DNA of 57,339 nt from a virus. Every line of letters starts with the position of its first letter. The stretch's first letter is position 1. The notes under the pieces are model-generated. The model did no database searches, had not been told where the DNA came from, and saw only the letters and a list, made by a program, of their open reading frames with translations. Below are positions 11,718-16,495 of the stretch, in pieces. The translations under genes were made by a program, and so were the position numbers. The stretch covers positions 1-57,339 of the IMG/VR virus record IMGVR_UViG_3300046507_000888; one strand, written 5' to 3'.

Positions 11718-12063
11718 TTTGATGCTCCGTGCTTGATCGGTTGTTTTCCCAATGCACCCGTCACCAGGTGCATCAGTGAAACTCTTCCGCTGATCCTTCG
11801 GCGCTACTGGCGCGGTACAGATCGATTCAAATTGTTCTTCCAGCCGCGGGCCTTTCGGCTTGTTCTCCCGCTGGATAACTGTTCTTGGTGCTTTACGCTG
11901 CGCCCCCGGGTCAGTTGCCAACCCTCTGAACCGTTTAGGCCGGTTCATCGCTGCCTTCGAATCTGGGCCGGTGGTGATCCGGCAAAGGTGAAGCTGTGCG
12001 ACTAAAGAGCGGTTCAGGCTGTGAGGCCCTGTCGAGTCCCTGTTGGGTGGCTCGATGGAGTGA
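11718..12063 (-). other. Untranslated leader of the early-left operon
   Basis: About 345 bases between PL and the first left gene without a convincing gene. It contains a perfect 7-bp hairpin with an 8-base loop at 11752-11773 (ATGCACC/GGTGCAT), about 35 bases ahead of the first start codon. This could be an antitermination or translational control element, but no canonical boxA was identified. Confidence 0.4.
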
Positions 12064-12092
12064 ATTTAAGCAAGCTGAAATAATCATGTCAA
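12064..12092 (-). promoter_or_regulatory. PL early-left promoter
   Basis: Reading leftward, -35 TTGACA (complement of 12087-12092), a 17-base spacer and -10 TTAAAT (complement of 12064-12069). The -35 is a perfect consensus. Two of the three operators overlap the promoter, so CI or Cro would block polymerase binding. Confidence 0.8.
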
Positions 12093-12124
12093 GCATGCTG
12101 AATAAATAAATTCAGAATGCTGAA
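12066..12124. promoter_or_regulatory. OL: three CI/Cro operators
   Basis: Three 14-bp near-palindromes of form TTNAGCATGCTGAA lie at 12066-12079 (TTAAGCAAGCTGAA), 12089-12102 (TCAAGCATGCTGAA) and 12111-12124 (TTCAGAATGCTGAA), spaced 23 and 22 bases start to start. The same sequence recurs at PR, identifying these as operators rather than chance repeats. Confidence 0.8.
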
Positions 12125-12137
12125 ATTTGTAGGCGTG

Positions 12138-12161
12138 AAAAAGCCCGCTCAATGGCGGGCT
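12138..12161 (-). terminator. Terminator after the DUF1654-like gene
   Basis: A perfect 7-bp stem (12142-12148 with 12155-12161), six-base loop and, on the minus strand, a run of T. It follows the stop of the SOS gene by a few bases and insulates it from PL. Confidence 0.8.
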
Positions 12162-12165
12162 CATC

Positions 12166-12417
12166 TCACGCTTCGCAATACTGTCGCCATCTGATTCTGA
12201 TGGCGCTACCCTCTAGGGCCTCGACTATCACGCCGGCCGTTTCGCTAATCTCATCAATAAGCTGCTGCCAGCCCTCGGCGGTTTCATGCTCAAGTCTTGA
12301 AACCGTAATGGCCTGTACCTTTTGTACGCTTGGAGATGCGATGAGGGCTTGTAAACGACGGCCCGCCAGTTCGTAAGACGTCCGGTTTTTTGTTGTAGGA
12401 GTAGGGGAAGGGTGCAT
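12166..12417 (-). CDS. DUF1654-like SOS-regulated protein
   Basis: An 83-residue protein resembling the Pseudomonas DUF1654 family: SYELAGRRLQALIASPSVQ, then RLEHETAEGWQQLIDEISETAGV and a C-terminal AIRIRW. Function is not established. The ATG at 12417 follows AAAGGAAAA; a perfect LexA-type box lies 18 bases upstream, so it should be induced by DNA damage. It is a self-contained cassette with its own promoter and terminator between PL and the immunity genes, suggesting it acts at or soon after prophage induction. Confidence 0.75.
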   Translation of the reverse strand: MHPSPTPTTKNRTSYELAGRRLQALIASPSVQKVQAITVSRLEHETAEGWQQLIDEISETAGVIVEALEGSAIRIRWRQYCEA

Positions 12418-12434
12418 GCGGTTTTCCTTTCGGT

Positions 12435-12454
12435 TACTGTATAAAAACACAGTA
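12435..12454. promoter_or_regulatory. LexA (SOS) box
   Basis: TACTGTATAAAAACACAGTA fits the LexA consensus CTGT-N8-ACAG exactly, with an AT-rich centre and flanking TA/TA symmetry. A -10-like TATACA on the minus strand lies inside it, so LexA would block transcription of the gene starting at 12417. Confidence 0.85.
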
Positions 12455-12646
12455 TTTGGCCTTCGAGGATTTCGCAATACACCTTAGGTCTGGTTGGAGA
12501 TATGCGTGGACACGACCACTTCATTTCAGCGGACAAAAAAAGCCAACCAAGTGACGTACTGATGTGCCATCACAGTGGGATACTGTCTACGCCCCGCACG
12601 CGCAGCCAGCGTTGAGACGGATGGCATACCTAAGGATTAGATAGCT

Positions 12647-13105
12647 ATGAGTGATGGCGTAGAGTTTTTTAAAGGCCACGGTGGCAGCATTGAATTAAGC
12701 GCCACTACGGTCACTATCAAGCGGAAGGGGGTGCTCGCTTTCGTAACTCAAGGGTTGAAGGGCGATAAAGAGATTCCAATCTCACTCCTCACCGCGCTTC
12801 AATTCAAGTCGGCCGGAATGTTCACCAACGGATACATTCAGTTTTCATTCCAGGGCGGAAGTGAAGCTAAAGGAGGCGCTTTCCAAGCTGCGTCCGATGA
12901 GAACACGGTGCTGTTCACGAAGGATCAACAGCCAGCGTTTGAAGCGCTGCGCGGTAAGCTTCAGCCACTCATTGGCCAGGTTTCCGCCCCCGTTGTGCAG
13001 AAATCGTATCTAGATGATCTGGAGCGTTTAGCTTCGCTCCGGTCTAGCGGCATCCTCACTGAAGAAGAGTTTCAAGCCAAGAAAAAGCAGATTCTTGGTC
13101 TGTGA
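12647..13105 (+). CDS. DUF4429/PH-like protein with SHOCT domain
   Basis: A 152-residue protein with an N-terminal PH-like domain (residues 1-110: GSIELSATTVTIKRKGVLAF, KEIPISLLTALQFKSAG) and a C-terminal SHOCT motif (YLDDLERLASLRSSGILTEEEFQAKKKQILGL region, about 120-152). SHOCT modules usually sit at protein termini and help oligomerisation. It is plus strand, between the SOS gene and a lipoprotein gene in the immunity region, so expression in the lysogen is plausible. Confidence 0.75.
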   Translation: MSDGVEFFKGHGGSIELSATTVTIKRKGVLAFVTQGLKGDKEIPISLLTALQFKSAGMFTNGYIQFSFQGGSEAKGGAFQAASDENTVLFTKDQQPAFEALRGKLQPLIGQVSAPVVQKSYLDDLERLASLRSSGILTEEEFQAKKKQILGL

Positions 13106-13145
13106 GCTGATAGTGGAAGCTCGGCGCATAGCGCACGCCAATACC

Positions 13146-13172
13146 AAAAGGCCCGCTTATGGCGGGCTTGTT
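13146..13172 (+). terminator. Terminator after the SHOCT gene
   Basis: A 6-bp GC stem (13151-13156 with 13162-13167) with a five-base loop followed by a short, imperfect T-rich run. Confidence 0.55.
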
Positions 13173-13284
13173 GATCCCGCACTCTACCACTCGTGGCACA
13201 CTATTTAGATAGCCAAAAGCCATCATTTCTCTACAATCGTGACTGGTCGAATTCCGGCCAGTTGCGACTTGGAAAGGATGAGTA

Positions 13285-13713
13285 ATGATTCTTCGGAAAG
13301 CGATAGCGGTAGCGTCCGTACTTGTTGCGCTGGGAGGCTGTGCGAGCATCGTCAGCGACAGCAAGCCAGAGGTGGGGGTGTACAGCACACCCACGGCCGC
13401 AAAGTACGAGATTGTGAATAGCCGAGGGATGGTTGTTGCTCACGGCGTTACGCCCGGAAAGGTACTTCTTGAAAGCGGGAGAGGGTACTTCAAGGGAGAA
13501 GACTACAAGGTCACCTTCCGGAAAGAAGGGTATTCAGATAGCACTGTGCCGCTTAAGACCACCGTTAACGGCTGGTACTGGGGCAATATCTTGATAGGCG
13601 GGCTCATAGGTATGCTCATCGTCGATCCGCTCACAGGTGCGATGTACACGCTGCCAGATGATGTAACTGGAAACACTTCACTGCTCGCGTCGCAGGAGGC
13701 TGCGGTAAAGTAG
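13285..13713 (+). CDS. Outer-membrane-type lipoprotein (accessory)
   Basis: A 142-residue lipoprotein with signal sequence and lipobox LGGC (Cys at residue 19), SIVSDSKPEVGVYSTPTAAKYEIVN, then a beta-rich PEGA-like region (GVTPGKVLLESGRGYFKGEDYKVTF) and a hydrophobic Gly-rich segment (NILIGGLIGMLIVDPLTGAMY). Such lipoproteins occur in bacterial genomes as well as prophages. Located in the immunity region, it could alter the cell surface of the lysogen or block superinfection; this is inference. Confidence 0.7.
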   Translation: MILRKAIAVASVLVALGGCASIVSDSKPEVGVYSTPTAAKYEIVNSRGMVVAHGVTPGKVLLESGRGYFKGEDYKVTFRKEGYSDSTVPLKTTVNGWYWGNILIGGLIGMLIVDPLTGAMYTLPDDVTGNTSLLASQEAAVK

Positions 13714-13740
13714 AGGGTAGGCCCCGCCGCCTGCGTCTAA

Positions 13741-14262
13741 CTAGGTTTCATCATCGGCTAGAGACCAGCCTGCAACATATAGCGCATGGTGACGTGCAGC
13801 ATCATCAAGTGGAGCTGTCTGCGCGTCGTACGTCACTTGATCTCTTCTGGTTTTCGGCGAAGGGGGAAGGATGCTGTCTAATCCAAGCCCTATTGAGGGA
13901 GTCGAATTTCTCTTCCGAGCAATCTCTTGTGGTGAGTCAGAGAAAGATATTGTCGGCTTCAGTCTGCCTCGACGGTTAGCTTTGCGACGCTGCTTCCTAG
14001 CCAGGGCAATCGATACAAAGGGGGCTGCTCCTCCAAATATTTTCTTCTGATAATAATCGATATGCGCGATCAGCCTTTCGGCTGCTCGCTCAAACTCCTC
14101 GCCCTCTTTGATTTCTCGCATGACGCTGTAAAGGAGCGCTAGTTGCGCCCATTCTCGGCTATCAATATCCCTAGGCTTTTGAATATCGAGGCGCCGTAGA
14201 AATTTCAATAGATTCGAAGGTAAAGTCATTTTCGCCAGATCTGTCGGCAAAGGTAGAGTCAT
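13741..14262 (-). CDS. Phage protein of the repressor-side region, unknown function
   Basis: A 173-residue protein with an N-terminal helical half (LLKFLRRLDIQKPRDIDSREWAQLALL) and a basic low-complexity middle (RKQRRKANRRGRLK). No family recognised. It is the most distal of the minus-strand genes running left from the repressor. Confidence 0.5.
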   Translation of the reverse strand: MTLPLPTDLAKMTLPSNLLKFLRRLDIQKPRDIDSREWAQLALLYSVMREIKEGEEFERAAERLIAHIDYYQKKIFGGAAPFVSIALARKQRRKANRRGRLKPTISFSDSPQEIARKRNSTPSIGLGLDSILPPSPKTRRDQVTYDAQTAPLDDAARHHALYVAGWSLADDET

Positions 14263-14298
14263 TTTCCGTCTCCTAGGAGATATATCTTCAGGGCGCCA

Positions 14299-14535
14299 TT
14301 AGTCTTCCGGATCCTCATCTTCCCCCGGCTTCCACCTGGCCATCAGATCAGCCATCAACTCAGCAATGGGCTCACTGTTGCCTGCCAGCACCTCTAAATG
14401 CTTGTTGACTCTGTCGTGCGTATTTGAAGAGCCGCGCTGATCGATCCAGATACTGATTTCTTCGATAGCAGACCCAAGGGCCATGACATTCTGGTTCATG
14501 CGGTAGAGCAGGGCGGGGGTGGGATCGTCTGGCAT
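14299..14535 (-). CDS. Small acidic phage protein, unknown function
   Basis: A 78-residue helical acidic protein (YRMNQNVMALGSAIEEISIWID, ending GEDEDPED). A clear SD-like GGAGG lies upstream of the ATG. Function unknown. Confidence 0.55.
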   Translation of the reverse strand: MPDDPTPALLYRMNQNVMALGSAIEEISIWIDQRGSSNTHDRVNKHLEVLAGNSEPIAELMADLMARWKPGEDEDPED

Positions 14536-14577
14536 GACGTTTCCTCCATCAAAAAGGAAAGCGTAACAGCGATGGTA

Positions 14578-14600
14578 AACAAAAAGCCCGGCTCTAGGCT
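14578..14600 (-). terminator. Possible terminator after the 14626 gene
   Basis: On the minus strand a short stem of the form AGCC...GGGCT is followed by five T. The stem is short and imperfect. Confidence 0.35.
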
Positions 14601-14625
14601 TGGCCTTAAGTCACCTCAGCCCGAC

Positions 14626-14952
14626 TCACCAGCGGAACGTTTTTTCCGCGGCACCGGCGAGGAGCGCAAATGCGATTATCAGCGCGAACATTCCAAAGAA
14701 CAGTGCAATTGAAGCGCCCCAAGACCAGTGCCAAGCATAGTGCGCACCCAAGACTCCGATGACGCAGTTCAGGAGGTTTATTCGGAGCATGAACACCAGA
14801 AACGTGGCGATCAGGGAGCTAAAGAACCAATGCCAATCCAGCCAGTATTGAATGCCACCGTAAATCGCTAAAATCTGGGCAATGCCCAAAGCGATATTGA
14901 CGGGGAGAAGAAGAAATCCTATTCCAGTCAAAACGTTTTCTGATGCGCTCAT
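14626..14952 (-). CDS. Small inner-membrane protein
   Basis: A 108-residue protein with about four membrane segments: LTGIGFLLLPVNIALGIAQI, FFSSLIATFLVFMLRINLL, CVIGVLGAHYAWHWSW and ALFFGMFALIIAFALLAGA. The ATG at 14952 has GGAGG 6 bases upstream. It lies in the repressor-side minus-strand set, so it may be expressed in the lysogen; superinfection exclusion is one possibility. Confidence 0.6.
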   Translation of the reverse strand: MSASENVLTGIGFLLLPVNIALGIAQILAIYGGIQYWLDWHWFFSSLIATFLVFMLRINLLNCVIGVLGAHYAWHWSWGASIALFFGMFALIIAFALLAGAAEKTFRW

Positions 14953-15018
14953 TGTAGCCTCCATGTATGCGAGCCATCATTTTAGCATCGCGAACGGCTG
15001 ACGGAGAGGCGGATACGG

Positions 15019-15045
15019 AAAGCCCGACGCTCGGCCGGGCTTTTT
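15019..15045. terminator. Bidirectional hairpin terminator
   Basis: A perfect 8-bp stem AAAGCCCG/CGGGCTTT (15019-15026 with 15036-15043) with a nine-base loop and T-runs on both strands. Confidence 0.7.
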
Positions 15046-15107
15046 ACGCACGTGGCCAAATCCCTTTGGCTGACTGCAATGTGCTTGTAGGTGTGACAAT
15101 CATTTAC

Positions 15108-15132
15108 ATAAAAGCCCGGCGCAGTGCCGGAC
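15108..15132 (-). terminator. Terminator of the repressor transcript
   Basis: On the minus strand a stem CCGGC/GCCGG with a five-base loop is followed by GCTTTTAT, five bases after the stop of the gene co-transcribed with the repressor. Confidence 0.7.
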
Positions 15133-15136
15133 TAAT

Positions 15137-15550
15137 CTACTTGCGCAGCTGAAACGAAATGACGTTATTAGGTATTTCTTCGTTAGGCAGGAAATACGAT
15201 TCCGGCTTCGCTGACATTTCCGCAAGGCGACCGGCGGGTAGCGGGATTAGTCTGGAAATTTCATCTTTGGAAAACTTTACCTTGGCTTCCAAAAAGTCGA
15301 TCATATCGCTTATGAGTTTGCTAGTTTCCTTGGGCGTCTCTTTATCAAGGGGCTCGCTTTTCCGACTTTCGCTAATCCTGATCCGATCCAGAGTCAGGTT
15401 CAATGTATTCAAGGCATCGAGCAGGGCTTTCGCCTCGGTCTCTCGACCATCTCCCCAGAGAAGTTCGGCCATTTTATTCAGGGCTTGGATAGATCTTTCA
15501 ATGTCTACAGCGGTCGCTGTAGTGGTGTCTGTCGGCCGTTTCTTCGGCAT
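15137..15550 (-). CDS. Gene co-transcribed with the repressor, unknown function
   Basis: A 137-residue protein starting 2 bases after the repressor stop, so it is translated from the same message. The N-terminal part is helical (DIERSIQALNKMAELLWGDGRETEAKALLDALNTLNLTLDRI region), the middle charged. Genes in this position in lambdoid phages (rex-like location) often act in the lysogen, for example in exclusion, but no similarity to Rex is visible. Confidence 0.6.
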   Translation of the reverse strand: MPKKRPTDTTTATAVDIERSIQALNKMAELLWGDGRETEAKALLDALNTLNLTLDRIRISESRKSEPLDKETPKETSKLISDMIDFLEAKVKFSKDEISRLIPLPAGRLAEMSAKPESYFLPNEEIPNNVISFQLRK

Positions 15551-15552
15551 AG

Positions 15553-16206
15553 TCAGAACTTCTGCAGCGCTCGCACCACGACTCCTACGATTCGGCAGCG
15601 CTCGTCGAACACTCCAATTGGGTAACTTGGGTTCAGCGGCTTTAAGAACAGTCGCCCGCCATCGCTCACGAGCTTCTTGAAAGTCGCCTCATTACTCTCT
15701 GGAAGTTTGGCGATCACCAGCTTGCCAGGCGCAGCCTCGGCTTCAGTATCCACGAGGATCAGCGTGCCTTCGGTAATGCTCTGTCCGACAGGCGAGGTCA
15801 TCGAGTCGCCTTTGACCTCGAGCCAGAACGCGGGGCCCTTCGAGTTGTATTCGGAAAACTCGTAGCGATCCGAAATTCCAGCGGGGTAGGGCTCCACCGC
15901 TTCAGACCAAGCGCCCGCAGACACCCAGCTAATCACCGGATAGCGGAAAGATAGAGCTGGCTGAGAAGTTGTGGAGACGTTCGGCTCCGAAGCTTCCTTC
16001 TCATCCCCCTCACCAATTGCAAGCCACTCAGCCCTAAAGCCCGTGGCTTTCGCCAAGGCGTAGAGATTCTCTGGCCGCAGGCTTTTGCTCTCGCCAGTAA
16101 TCCATTGAGTAACAGCAGAATTTGCGACGGCACAAAGCGACGCAATTTCGCCCTTCTTTTTCCCGCTGAGCTGTATAGCCCGGGCAATACGTTCGTGTCT
16201 TTCCAT
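15553..16206 (-). CDS. cI: CI-type prophage repressor (HTH + S24 peptidase)
   Basis: A 217-residue LexA/CI-type repressor. The N-terminal XRE HTH (residues 3-62) includes KKGEIASLCAVANSAVTQWITGES. The C-terminal S24 autoprotease has the cleavage pair A97-G98 in WVSAGAW, the nucleophile S135 in VKGDSM and the general base K177 in TFKKL. RecA-stimulated self-cleavage is expected under SOS. It is transcribed leftward from a promoter in the OR region, next to operators at 16217-16245 that should mediate autoregulation. Confidence 0.93.
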   Translation of the reverse strand: MERHERIARAIQLSGKKKGEIASLCAVANSAVTQWITGESKSLRPENLYALAKATGFRAEWLAIGEGDEKEASEPNVSTTSQPALSFRYPVISWVSAGAWSEAVEPYPAGISDRYEFSEYNSKGPAFWLEVKGDSMTSPVGQSITEGTLILVDTEAEAAPGKLVIAKLPESNEATFKKLVSDGGRLFLKPLNPSYPIGVFDERCRIVGVVVRALQKF

Positions 16207-16216
16207 GAACCCAATA

Positions 16217-16286
16217 TTAAGTTAACTGAATTTAAGCATGCAGTAGGCAGAAAACGCCGTTGACTCGATAAGTTAAGCATGCTGAA
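16217..16286. promoter_or_regulatory. OR: CI/Cro operators
   Basis: Three 14-bp sites matching those at PL: 16217-16230 (TTAAGTTAACTGAA, core changed), 16232-16245 (TTAAGCATGCAGTA, right half changed) and 16273-16286 (TTAAGCATGCTGAA, best match). The first two abut and lie just upstream of the repressor start; the third lies in the PR promoter. Confidence 0.78.
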
Positions 16287-16315: not shown

Positions 16316-16495
16316 ATGAATACGCATGAAGTCGCCGAATTCTTCGGCAGCAAGACAAAGCTGGCACTGGCTCTGGGCATCCGCCCAAGCGCCGTGACCA
16401 TGTGGGGAGGAACCATCCCTGAATCCCGGCAATACCAGATCCAGGTGCTTTCCAAGGGCAAGTTTAAGGCCGCAAAGAAAGTCCAGGCCGCCTAA
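16316..16495 (+). CDS. cro: Cro-type repressor
   Basis: A 59-residue protein, divergent from the repressor gene and immediately downstream of PR. It has the Cro arrangement: VAEFFGSKTKLALALGIRPSAVTMWGG forms the HTH, followed by a short strand region (IPESRQYQIQVLSKGKF) and a basic Lys-rich tail. GAGGA lies 8 bases upstream of the ATG. It should bind the same operators as CI and favour lytic development. Confidence 0.85.
   Translation: MNTHEVAEFFGSKTKLALALGIRPSAVTMWGGTIPESRQYQIQVLSKGKFKAAKKVQAA

Follow-up and report, generated by a model that had tools for sequence, protein, structure and literature searches.

The DUF1654 gene in the immunity region of the virus analysed here constitutes, as read from the sequence, a self-contained transcription unit comprising a sigma-70 promoter, a LexA (SOS) box lying over the -10 element, a short ORF, and a terminator placed ahead of the promoter PL. 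The window, which is the whole stretch of DNA that was analysed, is a virus record of 57,339 nucleotides, while the relatives of its DUF1654 are found in Pseudomonas phages as well as on Pseudomonas chromosomes. Regulation of the gene by the LexA protein of the host is considered almost certain. On balance, the gene is probably the prophage member of an SOS gene family of Pseudomonas and would act on the DNA-damage and DNA-processing machinery of the host and not on the CI repressor. The original prediction for this DNA had missed that the window gene would be the prophage copy of a gene present in most of the sampled Pseudomonas genomes, where it is also preceded by a LexA box.

The gene (12166..12417, minus strand) encodes a protein of 83 amino acids, which had been described as DUF1654-like. 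A Pfam profile search with the 83-residue product confirmed this assignment; PF07867 was matched with an E value of 2.7e-17 and 62.7 bits at a cut-off of 27, over positions 1-69 of 70, which is above the gathering cut-off and covers the whole domain. The PHROG match is phrog_2707, with its function listed as unknown. Thus, the window protein is a full-length match to a family (PF07867/PHROG 2707) of Pseudomonas and its phages. The Pfam and PHROGs entries for DUF1654 include neither a function nor a link to the SOS response, and the predicted SOS regulation is added here; within the literature covered, a single paper names DUF1654, and it describes the function as unknown (PMC13028781). A Shine-Dalgarno-like AAAGGA (12425..12430, minus strand) was read directly, and its AAGGA portion is kept in the consensus of the clade.

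The LexA box CTGTGTTTTTATACAG (12437..12452, minus strand) is a perfect CTGT-N8-ACAG, and the 57-kb window contains no second one. A perfect box had been reported 18 bases before the start; the box is indeed perfect, while its distance to the ATG is 19 nt. It overlaps the -10 element TACTGT (12449..12454, minus strand), which is found in 86/87 sequences of the window's clade and in 49/49 core copies. A 17-nt spacer separates the -10 element from the -35 element TTGCGA (12472..12477, minus strand), the TTG of which precedes the box at a fixed offset of exactly 25 nt in 82 of 87 members of the window's clade and in 48 of 49 core chromosomal copies. At the neighbouring offsets that were tried, TTG occurred in 0-2% of the sequences (about 1%). 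A promoter scan with simple thresholds overlooked both this promoter and the terminator of the gene. The same layout is known from the E. coli sulA promoter, where the LexA box overlaps a TACTGT -10 element at a distance of 17 nt from the -35 element; unlike the sulA-type unit, the unit described here encodes another gene product and possesses a dedicated terminator ahead of PL.

About one perfect CTGT-N8-ACAG is estimated to occur by chance in 57 kb, and boxes with one mismatch are found in the window 17 times versus 18 expected. A single box would, therefore, be weak proof by itself, and it is its position and its conservation that raise it above chance. DUF1654 genes were gathered by protein similarity only, which made the sampling blind to LexA boxes. 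The sample was drawn from viral and genome contigs, from 119 genomes belonging to a single Pseudomonas genus group, and from annotated phages of P. aeruginosa and P. otitidis, and it yielded 349 distinct DUF1654 genes with enough upstream sequence. A perfect box within 60 nt upstream is present in 290 of these, and another 55 have a box with seven of the eight positions matching (345 in total), counts that do not represent independent events, as the loci are related by descent. Among the control ORFs, 46 of 2312 (2%) have a box of at least 7/8 within the same distance, and 6 have a box of 8/8. Start codons were picked downstream of the box, which affects the distribution of gaps and not the promoter test. 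In 7/8 genomes, a box of this type (e.g., CTGTATAAAAAGACAG) is also found upstream of the host lexA gene, at a fixed position. With a box like that of host lexA, which overlaps the promoter and is conserved in orthologues, the gene has the features of a member of the Pseudomonas LexA regulon, and the LexA control put forward in the original prediction is well supported at the level of sequence.

The stop codon of DUF1654 is followed by an intrinsic terminator (12138..12161, minus strand) consisting of a GCCCGC stem, its counterpart GCGGGC, and a run of TTTTT, with a computed MFE of -27 kcal/mol (z = -6.2). The strong terminator that had been expected just before PL is, thus, borne out, and it is conserved in relatives. 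It is present in 84/92 genes of the window's clade (within 70 nt of the stop) and in 41/53 PKED-like phage genes; in genes of the long form and in core copies it is much less frequent (17/100 and 5/49, respectively). Being common in the window's clade and rare in core copies is as expected if PL is insulated, and fits the idea that the terminator serves to prevent SOS transcripts from running into the co-directional PL operon. PL (12063..12124, minus strand) is composed of TTGACA-18-TAAATT, with the promoter elements spanning 12092-12063, and of three CI operators at 12111-12124, 12089-12102, and 12066-12079 (minus strand). The operator sequence recurs by cro and PR at 16217-16230 and 16273-16286. 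The CI repressor of 217 amino acids (15553..16206, minus strand) contains an S24 peptidase domain (PF00717, E 6.2e-26), and its gene is located 3.1 kb from the DUF1654 gene; Cro (16316..16495, plus strand) is of the P22 type (PF14549, E 1.5e-18). Near the DUF1654 promoter no CI-operator-like site was found, the best score being 4.6 versus 15.8-20.7 for the five real operators. This agrees with the earlier view of a gene located between cI and PL and independent of CI.

Between CI and DUF1654, the window carries cargo (12647-15550) that includes a DUF4429/SHOCT protein, a lipoprotein-like ORF, and further ORFs with no assigned function; among relatives, CI and DUF1654 are separated by anything between about 0.1 and 4.8 kb. 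In the PL leader, a boxA-like sequence, CGCTCTTTA, is found at 12003-12011 (minus strand), and in relatives a GCGAAAGC hairpin is situated ahead of the boxA-like sequence, which suggests a nut site.

In the lysogen, LexA would hold DUF1654 off. Upon DNA damage, RecA would be activated, LexA would undergo self-cleavage, and DUF1654 would be produced independently of CI. The terminator would bar this early SOS transcription from the left operon, which would stay under the control of CI. The DUF1654 protein would not act on CI; less certainly, it would act at the SSB/RecA/nuclease hub and help either the cell or the genome of the phage to come through damage and induction. Taken alone, the functional claim, according to which DUF1654 targets the SSB/RecA/nuclease machinery once damage has occurred, is drawn from regulation and context, and we would give it slightly less than even confidence.

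DNA metabolism is also what the C-terminus of the long form of DUF1654 points to. In 100 of the 111 long-form proteins (at least 92 amino acids), an acidic run is followed by a terminal PF (e.g., EEEAAPF); examples of PF-ended proteins are those of L169, L153, and L161, besides about 98 others. The Pro and Phe codons of this tail vary synonymously, so that it is the protein sequence that is conserved. PF endings are rare elsewhere; they are found in 101 of 5771 ORFs (at least 80 amino acids) in the DUF1654 loci, a number close to that of the PF-ended DUF1654 genes themselves. In its acidic run and its A-P-F end, the tail appears to be akin to the C-terminal tip of SSB, DDDIPF, which docks many repair proteins (PMC5872125). 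In the window's DUF1654, which ends in QYCEA, an acidic PF tail is not present; within the family, such a tail is a trait of the long-form clade only.

The AlphaFold2 model of the window protein (pLDDT 85.8, based on an alignment of 74 sequences) predicts the order helix-helix-strand-helix-strand-strand. A Foldseek comparison of two AlphaFold2 models with the PDB and with viral structures yielded nothing at E <= 0.001, the fold search returning only weak SepF-like and KH-like resemblances, and a profile search against PDB sequences gave no match for DUF1654. We at first considered that one of the P. aeruginosa SOS genes PA0922 or PA2288 might be a DUF1654 gene, a point which the literature found did not settle. 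Homology to DinI was considered and rejected, with no Pfam match to PF06183 and an hhalign probability of 1.6%.

A relationship at the level of function is a separate matter, and DUF1654 might be the functional equivalent of DinI, that is, a RecA-filament binder tuning the cleavage of LexA or CI. Its predicted core order, strand-helix-strand-strand, is like that of DinI (1GHH). DinI is a LexA-controlled protein of 81 amino acids and, like DUF1654, it is small, of similar size, and common to chromosome and phages; its absence from 59/59 sampled Pseudomonas genomes would leave room for a replacement. The two proteins are, however, unrelated in sequence, DinI was not among the Foldseek matches listed, and its acidic C-terminal helix has no counterpart in the window protein. 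Taken together, such a DinI-like role is rather unlikely.

Of the 119 genomes from the sampled Pseudomonas genus, 102 contain DUF1654; sampling across the family gave 39 of 119, and no other genome among 142 from gammaproteobacteria contained it. The gene occurs as a core chromosomal copy and, in addition, as prophage copies; in one genome (G163), seven DUF1654 matches were found, several of which are clustered within a few kilobases. In 82/101 genomes, the core copy is located directly upstream of endA, encoding endonuclease I (PF04231), on the same strand, and the stop codon of DUF1654 is 3-16 nt away from the start of endA in 34 loci, where measurable. A chromosomal example of a LexA box followed by the DUF1654-endA gene pair is L082:4500-5534. 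Judging from this arrangement, endonuclease I appears to be part of the SOS regulon in much of Pseudomonas. Seven of the sampled genomes contain DUF1654 without PF04231, and other genomes contain endA without DUF1654. Since each occurs alone, the two are not obligate partners, and the pairing leaves the function undefined.

The close spacing of the two genes has a further possible meaning, namely that DUF1654 counteracts the co-transcribed nuclease EndA (or nucleases that dock on SSB) as an inhibitor or antidote, and that the phage copy shields phage DNA during the SOS response; the long form, with its SSB-tip-like tail, could then occupy SSB-binding nucleases. This is improbable in view of the genomes in which either gene is found without the other, and of the EndA N-terminus, which resembles a signal peptide, so that a cytoplasmic inhibitor would not obviously be needed. 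As a general function, the role of an EndA antidote is weakened by DUF1654 and endA being found apart.

In the phages, a CI-like repressor is encoded within about 5 kb of DUF1654 in 223/253 distinct viral loci, and two layouts are observed, which follow the DUF1654 protein subtype. In the window's subtype, DUF1654 is located downstream of CI, on the same strand, and ahead of PL in all loci with CI found (84/84); the PKED-ended phage subtype has the same layout (44/45). In the long subtype, the gene is situated on the opposite side, facing CI and divergent from the left operon (62/62), and the shorter P. aeruginosa forms (F116, LESphi3, TC7) share this layout. In one long-form phage (L169:4890-5003), CI-operator-like repeats, CAAGCACGCTTGTG, are found just upstream of the LexA box, within the likely promoter, which suggests dual control of that DUF1654 gene by CI and LexA. 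Two DUF1654 genes are present on opposite strands within one phage region in L159 and L250; in L159 (phage YMC11/07/P54), the pair is divergent, with LexA boxes between or before the genes. A comparison of L006, L021, L022, L023, L025, and relatives over the 200 nt past DUF1654 revealed that phages which are alike in other respects have exchanged the type of PL operator wholesale, with at least four immunity types, DUF1654 and its terminator being kept.

An anti-repression role had been raised for the gene. DUF1654 would then be a LexA-controlled antirepressor, binding and inactivating CI in the manner of Tum of phage 186 or of GfoA/GftA of the Gifsy phages. It is a small protein with a LexA box, adjoining the CI circuit, LexA-controlled phage antirepressors are already known (PMC3121763), and 186 Tum, Gifsy GfoA/GftA, and N15 AntC are likewise small, LexA-controlled, and prophage-borne. 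While these proteins inactivate their repressors, DUF1654 is not matched to any type of CI. A CI-specific binder should track its CI; instead, DUF1654 proteins of 94-98% identity are found beside CI proteins that are about 20-25% identical in their N-terminal halves. For instance, the DUF1654 proteins of L036 and L025 are 94% identical and the N-terminal 75 residues of their CI proteins 24%. The PL operators next to nearly the same DUF1654 fall into four or more unrelated types (TTCAG-N4-CTGAA, ATAAG-type, ATGGG-type, and TTACC-type), and a cognate pairing with the repressor type, as for Tum and GfoA, was not seen. In addition, the CI of the window possesses the S24 domain with Ala-Gly (in WVSAGAW) at the place expected for cleavage, so that damage should inactivate it without a helper; the repressors of the Gifsy phages cannot be cleaved, and the LexA unit of these phages is located outside the immunity region (PMC3121763). 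The gene is also found on the chromosome beside endA, with no CI to antagonise. A CI-specific antirepressor was, hence, rejected on the basis of the decoupling from CI type, the anti-repression role receives no support and is very unlikely, and DUF1654 is most likely not an anti-CI protein. Hardly credible is a fortuitous LexA box with a gene that is constitutive or under CI, where the chance level of one perfect match in 57 kb is set against a box that is near-universal at a fixed position in DUF1654 genes.

The preferred reading, in which the prophage carries its own copy of an SOS gene from Pseudomonas that acts on the damage machinery of the host, can be extended to the whole family in a tentative manner, the extension being rather doubtful as yet. 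DUF1654 would be a so far undescribed SOS effector family of Pseudomonas at the SSB/RecA hub, where the long form would dock SSB partners by its tail and the chromosomal form would be co-expressed with endonuclease I. Temperate phages would repeatedly have taken this LexA-timed module into their immunity regions, independent of CI type, and would shape the damage response of the host with it during induction. LexA-timed accessory genes of phages are of a kind already known; a DUF1654 gene of this kind, which chromosome and phages share and which is not tied to a type of CI, is to our knowledge undescribed, with few subscription journals among the literature covered.

With these data, a family without assigned function gains a regulatory identity within the SOS response, which extends over most of the sampled genomes of the Pseudomonas genus and hundreds of phages, and its function becomes directly testable. 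When a Pseudomonas prophage contains a LexA box, its induction is not necessarily under LexA control, a caution for predictors in which SOS dependence is deduced from boxes of this kind (PSOSP, PMC12527982). Finally, the module of LexA box, DUF1654, and terminator beside exchangeable operators would be a way in which an SOS gene is kept in the immunity region with the CI switch left undisturbed.
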